DNA from: Balneolaceae bacterium
Lineage (GTDB): Bacteria; Bacteroidota; Rhodothermia; Balneolales; Balneolaceae
Direction: 5' to 3'
DNA: 48,449 nt
NCBI GenBank assembly: GCA_007694095.1
Contig: RECI01000187.1
Coordinates: 1-48,449 of the forward strand
Shown here: positions 37,102 through 46,687 of the stretch, piece by piece
Layout of the letters: each line of letters begins with the position of its first letter
Position numbering within the stretch: the stretch's first letter is position 1
Notes under the pieces: generated by a model
What the model saw: only the letters and a program-made list of their open reading frames with translations
Databases searched by the model: none
What the model was told of the DNA's origin: nothing
Position numbers and translations under genes: made by a program

Positions 37102-38037
37102 TTACATTTTTATATTATCCAACTCTTGTAAAACACGCCGGATAAAACCATCATGTTGTTCAAGTAAAAGCTCAGCATTTTCTTTATTCATGCCGGACAG
37201 AGCCATCAGAAGGGCAGTTTTTACATGATGGTCTGCTTTATTAAGCAGTTCAGAAGCTTCATCGTAATGGATTCCTGAAAGCAGCATAACAATTCGTTTT
37301 GCCCTCTCCTCGAGTTTTTTATTTGTAAGCTGAAGGTCAACCATCACATTTTCATACACTTTACCAAGTCGAATCATTGCACCTGTGGTAAACATGTTGA
37401 GAATCATTTTTTGGGCTGTTGCACTTTTCATACGTGTACTTCCCATGATCACTTCCGGCCCAACGGGAACATCAATCAGAATATCCACATCTACATCTAC
37501 CTGCACGGCAGAAACAGTAGTCACCAATACGGTTTTACAACCTTTTTCTGAGGCTTTTTTAAGTACTCCATGTACATATGGTGTGCGTCCGCTTGCTGCA
37601 AGACCCACAACAATATCATGTGGCGAATGGATTTTACTGCTGGCTTCATCCTTGCCATACTCCTCAAGGTCTTCAGCTCCTTCCTGTGCCCTGAACATCG
37701 CTTTATCGCCACCAGCTATAAATCCTTGTACAGTTTCAGGGTCCGTTCCGAATGTCGGCGGACATTCGGCCGCATCGAGAACTCCCAGCCTGCCACTAGT
37801 TCCGGCACCAAAATAGAGAAGCCTCCCCCCTTTTTTCAGCCCTTCAACAATAAGGTCAATCGTCTCAGCAATTTGATCCAATCTTTTTGAAACGGCATCG
37901 GCAACATATCTATCTTCATTATTGATGATTTCTACAATAGTACGGGAATCAGCGAGGTCAATCTCCATGCTATTGGGGTTGCGCTGTTCCGTAAGCAGTT
38001 TTTCGAGTTTATGAAATAATTCCTTGTCAGCTTTCAC
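37102..38037 (-). CDS. murQ: N-acetylmuramic acid 6-phosphate etherase
   Basis: A 311-residue SIS-domain enzyme that removes the lactyl ether from MurNAc-6-phosphate to give GlcNAc-6-phosphate, for cell-wall sugar recycling. It has FGAGTSGRLGVLDAAECPPTFG, including the phosphosugar loop and catalytic-type Glu, and a second SIS half with GSTRMKSATAQKMILNMF. The start is GTG: the GTG at 38037 overlaps the biotin carboxylase stop as GTGA. A GTG three codons upstream (38046) is also open. No MurP or NagA gene lies nearby. Confidence 0.93.
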   Translation of the reverse strand: MKADKELFHKLEKLLTEQRNPNSMEIDLADSRTIVEIINNEDRYVADAVSKRLDQIAETIDLIVEGLKKGGRLLYFGAGTSGRLGVLDAAECPPTFGTDPETVQGFIAGGDKAMFRAQEGAEDLEEYGKDEASSKIHSPHDIVVGLAASGRTPYVHGVLKKASEKGCKTVLVTTVSAVQVDVDVDILIDVPVGPEVIMGSTRMKSATAQKMILNMFTTGAMIRLGKVYENVMVDLQLTNKKLEERAKRIVMLLSGIHYDEASELLNKADHHVKTALLMALSGMNKENAELLLEQHDGFIRRVLQELDNIKM

Positions 38038-39530
38038 GTATTCCACTGTCTTTTAGTCCACCAGTTACTTGAATGGTTAACCGGGGCGGATTCCTTGTTT
38101 GGGTGCTTTTTATATTTATTATCCAATAAGATTGAAGATACCAGTGCAGCCACTTTATTATCACTGTTTTCAGTAATAATTTGTGGCTGATAGTAGTTTG
38201 GTATAAAATGCGTATCGTAATTCCCTTCCCGGAAATGAGGCTCATTCATCACAAATTTACAAAATGGAATCGTTGTTTTAACACCTGAGACCGTATATTC
38301 ATCCAATGCCCGGATCATTTTTTGAATGGCTGATTTCCTGTCGGTGGCATGCACACAGAGTTTTGATATCATCGGGTCATAGTAAATGGATATTTCCTGC
38401 CCTTCATCGATTCCTGAATCAACACGTACACCATTTCCAGATGGTATTCGGTGCCTGGAGAGTTTCCCGGTACTGGGGAGAAAGTGATCAAACGGGTCTT
38501 CAGCATAAATCCTGCATTCAATGGCATGTCCGTTCCTGGTAACCTGATCTTGTGTAAAGGGCAGTTTTTTCCCTTCGGCAATGTCAATCTGGAGGGATAC
38601 GAGGTCAATCCCGGTGATAAGCTCCGTCACAGGATGTTCTACCTGCAATCGTGTATTCATCTCAAGAAAGTAAAAACTCCTGTGTTTATCGACTAAAAAC
38701 TCAACGGTGCCGGCCCCATAATAACCGCAGCTTTTTGCGGCTGCCACGGCAGCCTCAGCCATTAACTTTCGCAAGTCATCAGTCATAAATGGAGAAGGAG
38801 CTTCCTCTATCACTTTTTGATGCCGTCGCTGAATGGAGCATTCTCGTTCGAACATATGTATCACATTTCCATGTGTATCGCCAAATACCTGGAATTCAAT
38901 ATGGTGTGGTTCATCGAGGTATTTTTCAAGAAATACACGCCCGTCACCAAATGCATTTTGAGCTTCAGAACGTGCGGCTTTAATACTATTTTCAAAATCA
39001 TCTTCGTCATGAACGATTCTCATACCTTTACCTCCGCCACCAGCCGCAGCCTTGATCAAAACGGGGAATCCAATTTCTCTTGCAACAATTTTTGCTTCCG
39101 AAAGACTTTCGATATCAGATTCGGTGCCAGGCGGAAGTGGTACATTCGCTTTTTTTGCCAGTTCTCGTGCCTTTGTTTTATCACCCATCAATTCAATTGC
39201 ACGGGGCGAAGGGCCGATAAAAATGATATCATTATCAATACAAAGTTTTGCAAAAGCAGCATTTTCACTTAAAAATCCATACCCGGGATGAATGGCATCG
39301 GCCCCGGTAAGTTTGGCCGCATCAATTATTTTTTGATGAACAAGGTAACTCTCAGAAGACGCTGCATTACCAATATGCACCGACTCATCAGCAAAAAGAA
39401 CATGTGGTGAAGTATGGTCAACACTTGAAAATACCGCAACTGTTTTTATGCCCCTTTCCCGGCATGTTCGTATTACACGTAATGCAATTTCACCCCGGTT
39501 GGCGACCAGGATTTTATTAATATTGGCCAT
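38034..39530 (-). CDS. accC: Biotin carboxylase subunit (acyl-CoA carboxylase)
   Basis: A 498-residue ATP-grasp biotin carboxylase that carboxylates biotin on a carrier with ATP and bicarbonate. Visible are the N-terminal NRGEIALRVIRTCRERG (11-27), the glycine-rich ATP loop AAAGGGGKGMRIV (161-173), ERECSIQRRHQKVIEE and EMNTRLQVEHPVTE (290-303). The tail beyond about 450 (IAA-like helix, SNWW) is longer than in housekeeping AccC and resembles propionyl-CoA-type alpha subunits of this phylum. No biotin-carrier or carboxyltransferase gene is adjacent. Its stop overlaps the murQ start, which is unusual for this gene. Confidence 0.92.
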   Translation of the reverse strand: MANINKILVANRGEIALRVIRTCRERGIKTVAVFSSVDHTSPHVLFADESVHIGNAASSESYLVHQKIIDAAKLTGADAIHPGYGFLSENAAFAKLCIDNDIIFIGPSPRAIELMGDKTKARELAKKANVPLPPGTESDIESLSEAKIVAREIGFPVLIKAAAGGGGKGMRIVHDEDDFENSIKAARSEAQNAFGDGRVFLEKYLDEPHHIEFQVFGDTHGNVIHMFERECSIQRRHQKVIEEAPSPFMTDDLRKLMAEAAVAAAKSCGYYGAGTVEFLVDKHRSFYFLEMNTRLQVEHPVTELITGIDLVSLQIDIAEGKKLPFTQDQVTRNGHAIECRIYAEDPFDHFLPSTGKLSRHRIPSGNGVRVDSGIDEGQEISIYYDPMISKLCVHATDRKSAIQKMIRALDEYTVSGVKTTIPFCKFVMNEPHFREGNYDTHFIPNYYQPQIITENSDNKVAALVSSILLDNKYKKHPNKESAPVNHSSNWWTKRQWNT

Positions 39531-39538
39531 AGTTGAAA

Positions 39539-40252
39539 TCAGAACAAATTATCCTTAAGCATGTGTGGAGCTAACGTCCAAAGGTCGTTTGTCTCCTGAT
39601 CCCACACATAATGCTCATGCTCGATGAATTTTAGCCAAAGCAGGTCGCTCATTTTCCGGGTTTCGTCTTTTGTCGGGTCATTTTTGTAATTCAAAAGTCG
39701 AATATCAACCGAACTAATCAGTTTAAGTAATTTATCATCGTTTAAATTTGGTATAAATTCAACCGGGTTATTAAAATATATACTGTCATCGATCACATTA
39801 TCCATATGCACCCTGATATCAAAGTAACCACAAATACCAACTACCTTCTGAAAATTTGTGGGATATTTTAGTGCCATTAAAAGTGCTGCATACGCTCCAA
39901 TTGCCACACCTGTGGTGATGATAAAAGGATTGGAATTGATATCAGAAATAAAAGGTAGGAGCTCATCCATGATGTATTCCTGGTATTGTTCAAACCTCCG
40001 TATCCGTAAGAGTGGTTCAATTTCATGATTCATAAAACTTTCATCCGAAAAGTTATCAATCAAAAATAACTGGTTAAATCCGTCATCAATTTGCTGCTGC
40101 AATATGTGTACTGCGTGTTTATCTTCCCACTCTTTAAAATTTCCGTGTGCACTTGGAAAAACGATAACCGGTGTACCCTCATCACCGTAGATCAATAAAT
40201 CCATTTCTTTGCCCATACTAGGGCTATTCCACGACTTAAAGACTCGTTTCAT
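39539..40252 (-). CDS. Esterase-fold protein lacking catalytic Ser and His
   Basis: About 237 residues from the ATG at 40252; the frame is open 37 codons further upstream, but that part is not family-like. The layout is that of the small esterase (EstA/YbbA-like alpha/beta hydrolase) family: KSWNSPSMGKEMDLLIYG, VFPSAHGNFKEWED and NPFIITTG. The nucleophile elbow reads GVAIG (115-119), with Ala117 where the family has Ser in GxSxG. The C-terminal AHDWxxW-type motif reads TNDLW, so the His is also lost. The protein is probably a pseudoenzyme or binding protein. It lies 8 bases upstream of the biotin carboxylase, probably in one operon with it. Confidence 0.75.
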   Translation of the reverse strand: MKRVFKSWNSPSMGKEMDLLIYGDEGTPVIVFPSAHGNFKEWEDKHAVHILQQQIDDGFNQLFLIDNFSDESFMNHEIEPLLRIRRFEQYQEYIMDELLPFISDINSNPFIITTGVAIGAYAALLMALKYPTNFQKVVGICGYFDIRVHMDNVIDDSIYFNNPVEFIPNLNDDKLLKLISSVDIRLLNYKNDPTKDETRKMSDLLWLKFIEHEHYVWDQETNDLWTLAPHMLKDNLF

Positions 40253-40385: not shown

Positions 40386-41360
40386 TCAGCCCTGCTGCCT
40401 CATACCTAGCAATACTCTTGGCAGAATCGAGAATTTTTCAGTTGAATTGAGAAAAGCACGGGAATTGAACACCTCGTAATTATTCTTTTCGATCTTATCC
40501 AAAATTCTGCTGTAATTTTCGCGAGCAAGCTTAACCGGAAGCCAGCTGTCTCTGCTTAGCATAGGAATACCTTCATCCGAACTTATATAATACTCACGGG
40601 TACGCTGGATCTGAAAAATCATCATATCAATAAATTTGCCGGTAACCTTTTTTTCGAAGAGTTCAGCTTCGGTGATATTGAAATTATTGAGGTCTTCAGC
40701 AGGCAGGTAAATCCGGTTTCTATCAAGATCCTCCCCGATGTCTCTTAAAATATTTGTAAGCTGCATGGCTATGCCAAGATCCACGGCGTGATCGAGTGCT
40801 TTTGGGTCATTATATCCAAAAACTTCGCTTGTCATTAGACCAACCACTGAAGCTACTTTATATGAATACTGATAAAGCTCATCGAAGGTGTCGTAACGGT
40901 TCTTCGTCAAATCCATGGTTACACCATCAAGCAGGGTTAACGGGTATTCGATGGAAATGTGAAAACGTTTAAGTACGTCTGCGAAAGCAAGCAAAATAGG
41001 ATTATCGTGCTCTACTCCCCTGTAAGTGCTGATTAACTTTATTTTAAATAATTCGGTTCTTTCGGTGATTTCAGCATAACTGATTTTCTCATTATTTATC
41101 AGGTCTTCAGTTTCATCTACAAGGTCATCCAAATACCGGCACAGGGCATATATGGCGAATATACTTCGTTGTTTATGGTAAGGCAGAAACCGCGTAGCCA
41201 TATAAAACGTTTTCGCATACTTACGGGTTACAGCCCTGCAGTGAGCATAGGCGGATCTCAAGGCCGAATCTTCAATCTCAGAAATTACAGCCTGATGAAA
41301 ATTCGTTTTTTCATAGATTGGCCTCAAAAAGGTATAAGGTATGCGTAGGATATTAGACAT
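40386..41360 (-). CDS. crtB: Phytoene/squalene synthase family protein
   Basis: A 324-residue prenyl synthase that joins two prenyl diphosphates head to head, making phytoene (C40) or squalene/dehydrosqualene (C30). The two Asp-rich motifs are YLDDLVDE (77-84) and NILRDIGEDLDRNRIYLP (203-220); the aromatic TFYMATRFLP (51-60) is typical. Phytoene for carotenoid pigment is the usual role in this lineage, and the symbol crtB follows that view, but no crtI, crtY or other carotenoid gene is in the window. It is divergent from the LacI-type regulator. Confidence 0.88.
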   Translation of the reverse strand: MSNILRIPYTFLRPIYEKTNFHQAVISEIEDSALRSAYAHCRAVTRKYAKTFYMATRFLPYHKQRSIFAIYALCRYLDDLVDETEDLINNEKISYAEITERTELFKIKLISTYRGVEHDNPILLAFADVLKRFHISIEYPLTLLDGVTMDLTKNRYDTFDELYQYSYKVASVVGLMTSEVFGYNDPKALDHAVDLGIAMQLTNILRDIGEDLDRNRIYLPAEDLNNFNITEAELFEKKVTGKFIDMMIFQIQRTREYYISSDEGIPMLSRDSWLPVKLARENYSRILDKIEKNNYEVFNSRAFLNSTEKFSILPRVLLGMRQQG

Positions 41361-45835: not shown

Positions 45836-46510
45836 TTACTGGTTTTTATTCTCAATACCAAAGAACTCCAGCACCGAAATCATATCTTCCTGATCGATTC
45901 CGGCTTCTGCCATCTTTCCAAAGCTGGTATTTTCAATAAAGATCATCCGGTAATCTACAGAATCAGGTAAATTATCTTCTGCAATACTTATGTGATCCCA
46001 ACCGCTGGTGGTGCGTGTGATAGCTACCGAGCCGCGCCCGACTAAAAATATCAGTTTTACTCCGATACCGTCAACCGAACGGTACATATACGGGAGAAGA
46101 TGCCACCCTCCAAGAGATCCACCTCCCGTATGATTGGCATTGGCATAGATCACAATAGCTCCACCGGCTTCAAAAAAAGTCGATGTTTCGATCCCGCCTG
46201 TTACCTCAGATGGAATGAAATACTCACGGAAAATATTATTGGATCCATAGTGGAGATTATTGCTCCAGTCACTTGCAGCAACTGTAAAATTAAAAGTTTG
46301 TACATTCGCATTTCCATCCTGACCATCCTGACCATCCTGACCATCTTCTCCGTCTTGTCCAGAAGGGCCTTCGGGACCTGGCGTACCCTGTGTACCCGTT
46401 AACCCTTGTTCACCGGGTGGTCCTTGCGGACCTGCAGGCCCCTCGCAAGCAATGCCTGCCAATACAAGTGTAAGTACTGTAATGAAAACTATATAGATTT
46501 TGATTTTCAT
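45836..46510 (-). CDS. Collagen-like (Gly-X-Y) lipoprotein
   Basis: About 224 residues from the ATG at 46510, which opens a normal lipoprotein signal peptide; the frame is open 16 codons further upstream. The lipobox Cys22 is followed by Glu and then fifteen Gly-X-Y triplets ending in a run of GQD. Next come the DGNANV junction and a beta-rich C-terminal domain with FREYFIP and ending VLEFFGIE. The layout and junction match the paralogue at 13420-14037. It is probably a trimeric surface lipoprotein. It is oddly placed between trpB and trpA. Confidence 0.78.
46314..46340 (-). repeat. Three 9-base tandem repeats encoding GQD
   Basis: Three exact copies of CCATCCTGA on the plus strand encode Gly-Gln-Asp triplets within the collagen-like domain; a partial fourth copy follows. 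Being in frame, slippage would change the number of GQD triplets without breaking the gene. Confidence 0.7.
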
Positions 46511-46687
46511 ACCATTATATAATATAGTTAAAGGTAAAGTTTTCAGAAATTTACTCAATTGAAACCAGAACCACTAACCGGTTTAAATATTGAGTTCAAC
46601 TAAGTATCTAAAACGGATTAAGAATCTGGTAGCATGTTATCCCACATAAAACAGGAGTATCTTGTCTATCTTGCGGCGCATAAGTTA

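Follow-up and report, generated by a model that had tools for sequence, protein, structure and literature searches.

The PF00756 esterases, among them the CE1 feruloyl esterases, FrmB/esterase D and antigen 85, carry the alpha/beta-hydrolase fold over nearly their full length, with glycines at the nucleophile elbow and an acid Asp. MPT51 (FbpC1) of Mycobacterium tuberculosis (PDB 1r88) is secreted and belongs to the same alpha/beta-hydrolase group without being catalytic. Homologues of an enzyme family that lack its conserved catalytic motifs are defined as pseudoenzymes (PMC10211241). We analysed a stretch of 48,449 nucleotides from a Balneolaceae bacterium (contig RECI01000187.1 of assembly GCA_007694095.1; "the window") that encodes a 237-aa protein sharing the fold, the elbow glycines and the acid Asp with these esterases. 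Unlike them, it lacks both the nucleophile Ser and the base His, and its identity to them in structural alignments is 8-19%. In the literature on pseudoenzymes of this fold, on MPT51 and on the ligase operon described below we found nothing describing this Ser-less family.

A first-pass annotation had proposed an esterase fold. This is supported by the PF00756 score of 35.8 bits (curated cut-off 22), which places the protein in the family, by an AlphaFold2 model (mean pLDDT 88.4, pTM 0.89, weakest at approximately residues 151-170) and by the best PDB structure matches, which are CE1 feruloyl esterases, FrmB/esterase D and antigen 85 with Z of ~19-24 over ~200-225 residues. The predicted fold is that of an alpha/beta-hydrolase of the CE1/esterase D type, and a nearly identical order of elements is predicted for a Ser-type relative from Leadbetterella (L052). 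Searching the PDB sequences with phmmer gave no significant relative. MPT51 matches with a Z of 20.3 over 213 residues at 12% identity, but its gene context is different and, whereas it is secreted, no signal peptide is evident from the sequence of the 237-aa protein, which thus appears to be cytoplasmic. Open reading frame, strand and start had been assigned correctly, the ATG at 40252 being preceded by AGGAG a few bases upstream and the MKR start being conserved in homologues. The coordinates of the gene, its key codons and its neighbours are given in Table 1.

Table 1. Coordinates in the window of the esterase-fold gene, its diagnostic codons and the adjacent genes
Feature	Position	Strand	Basis or remark
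Ser/His-less esterase-fold protein, 237 aa, PF00756 type	39539..40252	-	ORF, Pfam, AlphaFold2
Ala117 codon, nucleophile position of elbow (GVAIG)	39902..39904	-	Ser in 46/46 Ser-type relatives
Asp223 codon, catalytic His column	39584..39586	-	Residue number (40252-3*222); His in 46/46 Ser-type relatives
Asp192 codon, triad acid column, kept	39677..39679	-	Residue number; Asp in 58/62 Ser-less members
Biotin carboxylase (BC), 8 nt downstream of the pseudo-esterase	38034..39530	-	Pfam
murQ-like gene, next in row after BC	37102..38046	-	Position; MurNAc-6-P etherase is the name given in the first-pass annotation
Squalene/phytoene-synthase family gene (PF00494, PSY), upstream in row	40386..41360	-	Pfam

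No biotin-carrier domain was found in the BC by Pfam, and the genome of the window has two biotin carboxylases, this being one of them. At E<=1e-20 no second gene like PSY is matched in this genome. Elsewhere in the window an ORF on the minus strand (45836-46558) combines a lipoprotein-like start with collagen-like GPQGPPG and DGQ repeats.

Both motifs on which the annotation had based a loss of catalytic residues are present, GVAIG at residues 115-119 and TNDLW at residues 221-225. The loss of Ser at position 117 and the loss of His hold, but the replacement of the latter by Asn (Asn222) does not: gapless alignment to Ser-type relatives from the same order (..KHDWPWW) puts the His column at Asp223, making the change His-to-Asp. 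Ser-type relatives from the order of the window have a GASFG (or GCSFG) elbow together with HDWP(W/A)W or close variants, and in the class-wide sample Ser117, His223, Asp224, Trp225 and Trp228 are found in all 46 Ser-type members. Of the features of an active serine esterase, the protein has neither the Ser of GxSxG nor the catalytic His of the HDW motif, while the triad acid, Asp192, is retained. Among the 62 Ser-less members the nucleophile position is occupied by nine residues (A, G, D, H, N, E, F, Q or R), and positions 223, 224 and 228 each vary among many residues. Checking the invariant residues for an alternative Ser/His pair, by topology deduced from predicted secondary structure rather than from coordinates, gave no plausible candidate. 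One Ser-less relative (L099, genome G069) has Asp117, His223 and Asp192 together, an Asp-His-Asp arrangement resembling dehalogenase-type hydrolases; its sisters lack the His.

Homologues were searched for in 58 related genomes, a genome collection and 244 genomes of the class, and were read in the fetched regions, which cover part of the matches from the 244 genomes. This gave 108 distinct homologous proteins, 62 without the nucleophile Ser and 46 with Ser and His. All 62 Ser-less proteins stem from the order of the window, where they occur in three families (f1, which is the window's family, f3 and f4), and all homologues fetched from outside the order have Ser and His. The closest named records are MAGs of Balneolaceae, and many of these bear the name CSSed. 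In the genomes sampled, f1 has the Ser-less form only and f2 and f5 have the Ser-type only, and in many f4 genomes both forms coexist. The Ser-type paralogues from the same order are the closest homologues with an intact Ser-His-Asp site, sharing structural motifs with the Ser-less proteins at ~38-45% identity. Since 62 distinct homologues lack the Ser, sequencing error is excluded as the cause of its loss. The Ser-less genes are free of internal stops in the searches of the 58 related genomes and of the 244 genomes of the class, with the match in G103 being in two pieces. In several lineages the gene is missing, indicating that its function is dispensable there.

The catalytic columns (elbow and His-loop) were left out of the 66-row and 60-row trees. 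The first set contained 44 Ser-less proteins, and the careful tree of 66 rows unites them in one clade with a support of 100/97. A quick tree of 108 rows placed two long-branched Ser-less proteins of G124 outside the remaining Ser-less proteins; in the tree of 60 rows they lie inside the Ser-less clade (support 94, not starred). Both this placement and the gene order at the G124 loci, EST-BC-murQ as in the Ser-less clade, argue for one origin, and a single origin is thus the simplest reading. The homologues collected, as had been suggested, as a check for a conserved Ser/His-less clade hence group as one in two of three trees.

The two forms reside in different gene contexts. The row with a biotin carboxylase and murQ, to which the annotation had drawn attention, is present in the window and recurs among the Ser-less genes, 61 of 62 loci lying in the row purC-lacI / PSY-EST-BC-murQ or part of it. 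Ser-type genes are followed by an ATP-grasp-type gene in 37/46 loci and are found in a PSY-BC-murQ row in 0/46. The ATP-grasp-type gene owes its name to its operon position and to Pfam matches that are weak or lacking altogether; usually the next gene codes for a ligase, either a circularly permuted ATP-grasp or GCS2, and often a class-I glutamine amidotransferase comes after that, as in the EST-ATP-grasp-CP_ATPgrasp-GATase operons of the same-order paralogues; the GCS2 variant occurs in Bacteroidota outside the class. This row (e.g. L069:3345-7388, L052:5965-9728) is conserved in the class and in some Bacteroidota and encodes a putative ligase pathway. Among the 58 relatives the ligase operon is absent from all f1 genomes and from those of f3 except G042, so that the Ser-less protein does not serve it there. 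We considered the operon as a partner in trans in the family of the window and rejected it because of its absence from all f1 genomes.

In f1 genomes the BC gene follows the Ser-less gene closely, mostly after 6-18 nt, which suggests co-expression, and in some f3 genomes the two genes overlap slightly. Where the Ser-less gene is absent from a genome, the PSY-BC-murQ row persists with a joining stretch of 61-197 nt, so that the gene was either inserted into, or lost from, an older row. Where it is missing at L138 and L139 the PSY-BC gaps measure 193-197 nt, and the search for a gene remnant in the PSY-BC gaps yielded only a doubtful MKRVK start at L139, possibly a remnant and possibly chance. 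In G055 PSY and BC are separated by ~5.3 kb (L145), and the Ser-less gene (L074) is located on another contig without PSY or BC neighbours.

Pairs of Ser-less genes gave dN/dS values of 0.016-0.12, a range that excludes several pairs saturated at synonymous sites, for which dS or the YN00 estimate failed. These values indicate purifying selection and are similar to those of the two usable Ser-type pairs. When Ser-less were compared with Ser-type members without weighting, entropy increased most at five residues, 224, 228, 223, 35 and 117, which belong to the catalytic machinery or neighbour it; with sequence weighting and closer Ser-type members, the same positions stayed high, mixed with 45, 194, 38 and further ones in neighbouring loops. 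As the Ser-less proteins have diverged more from one another (mean identity 0.44 vs 0.60), their entropy is raised everywhere (mean 1.87 vs 1.16 bits), and the contrast between regions therefore matters more than absolute values. Loops were assigned to the active-site side or the opposite side on the basis of the secondary structure prediction and the typical fold topology rather than of coordinates. Conservation drops by 1.2-2.1 bits in five loops of the active-site side (oxyanion, after strand 4, elbow, acid and His loops) and changes less in the strand 1-2 turn and in the cap; loops on the opposite side change by only -0.5 to +0.5 bits. For the oxyanion loop and the His loop, comparisons within groups go in the same direction. 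Both copies conserve residues away from the old active site, namely W8-x-S10-P11, N60, R83, E97-x-x-P100, Y159-x-x-N162-P163 and D183-x-R185, although these may be purely structural. No residue was found to be gained throughout the Ser-less clade as compared to Ser-type members of the same order. D183 and R185 had been candidates for such a gain, but the signal vanished against the same-order Ser-type members, which keep both. The conserved clade, the low dN/dS and the loss of conservation mainly around the old active site bear out the earlier suggestion of a pseudoenzyme under selection: conserved catalytic motifs are absent from a homologue of an enzyme family that is under purifying selection. 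It is thus very probable that the protein has lost its activity and is a pseudoenzyme.

Other readings differ in how well they fit these data. A decaying pseudogene or an assembly error would agree with the gene being missing in several lineages, but is barely conceivable given 62 distinct Ser-less members with open reading frames and low dN/dS in three families. That the protein has remained an enzyme, its active site having migrated or become non-standard, we regard as improbable. Pseudoenzymes with migrated catalytic residues have been noted in a review (PMC10211241), all Ser-less members retain S10 and 61/62 retain H212, and Asp is present at the elbow in a small f1 subclade, in L099 together with His223 and Asp192. 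However, the elbow residue varies freely, the sisters of L099 are without the His, and S10 closes strand 1 while H212 precedes the last strand, which by predicted secondary structure and the usual topology of such folds would put them at opposite edges of the sheet, so that they are not expected to pair. A ligand sensor, whose old pocket would bind a small molecule (e.g. an acyl compound) and signal or sequester, is a possibility that we doubt but rate above a surviving enzyme. Fold and acid residue are kept, and several pocket-loop residues are invariant in the genus of the window (P33, G37, E41, W42, Y121, D145, N191, D192 and W225), but across the clade residues as different as Gly, Asp, His, Phe and Arg occupy the pocket floor, and the pocket loops are the most relaxed regions, making a clade-wide ligand site unlikely.

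The annotation had also tied the protein to the adjacent biotin carboxylase, and a dedicated accessory or regulatory subunit of this enzyme would explain why the two genes are adjacent in most carrier genomes, with the short gaps in the window's family and the slight overlaps in some f3 genomes. The co-occurrence expected of a subunit was not observed, though, as protein and carboxylase repeatedly occur without each other, and we consider this role unlikely. In G036, G039, G047 and G054 the Ser-less protein is kept without this BC, the one carboxylase that they hold scoring as the second, unlinked copy elsewhere (the absence being less certain for G047, which is 88% complete); L105 and L106 (G127, G126) also have no BC at the locus. 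Conversely, eleven genomes have the carboxylase without the Ser-less protein (G005, G016, G028, G030, G031, G032, G034, G035, G038, G041 and G046). PSY is absent as well from G036, and in G051 and G053 murQ is only distant, on another contig. Within the limits of MAG completeness these exceptions imply that no neighbour is an obligatory partner.

On balance we favour an ancient duplicated and relocated pseudoenzyme that acts as a non-catalytic, partner-binding protein. The esterase gene would first have served the ATP-grasp/glutamine-amidotransferase ligase operon and would have been duplicated early in the order of the window. One copy would then have been relocated between the phytoene-synthase-like gene and the biotin-carboxylase/murQ pair, where it would have lost the catalytic Ser and His and the surrounding residues while keeping the fold and the triad acid; tree, synteny and alignment point to these historical steps. 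The product would be a non-catalytic alpha/beta-hydrolase-fold protein that most probably binds a partner (rather a protein than a small ligand) and serves as its adaptor or regulatory subunit, with the contact probably being made by those surfaces away from the old active site that are conserved in both copies. Partner binding is the most economical mode of action because the pocket is relaxed while other positions are kept, but taken by itself we give it only an even chance. As no neighbour is needed in every lineage, the partner is probably encoded elsewhere or lineage-specific. More speculatively, and rather doubtfully, the dead esterase, recruited at an early stage of the order, could have become a lineage-wide regulatory or adaptor protein for the metabolism of the locus, i.e. 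isoprenoid/carotenoid synthesis, acyl-CoA carboxylation or cell-wall recycling. As far as our searches show, such a non-catalytic use of the hydrolase fold would be new for these bacteria.

Proteins of this kind are already known, as the comparison with MPT51 illustrates, and the Ser-less clade is a clean, newly delimited one. With intact and dead copies together in f4, it provides a clean natural case of the change from enzyme to pseudoenzyme, in which catalytic loss coincides with relocation to a new gene row and the relaxed constraint can be followed from site to site. Identification of a partner would define a new non-catalytic role of this very common fold, and would do so in a group of bacteria that has been little studied.
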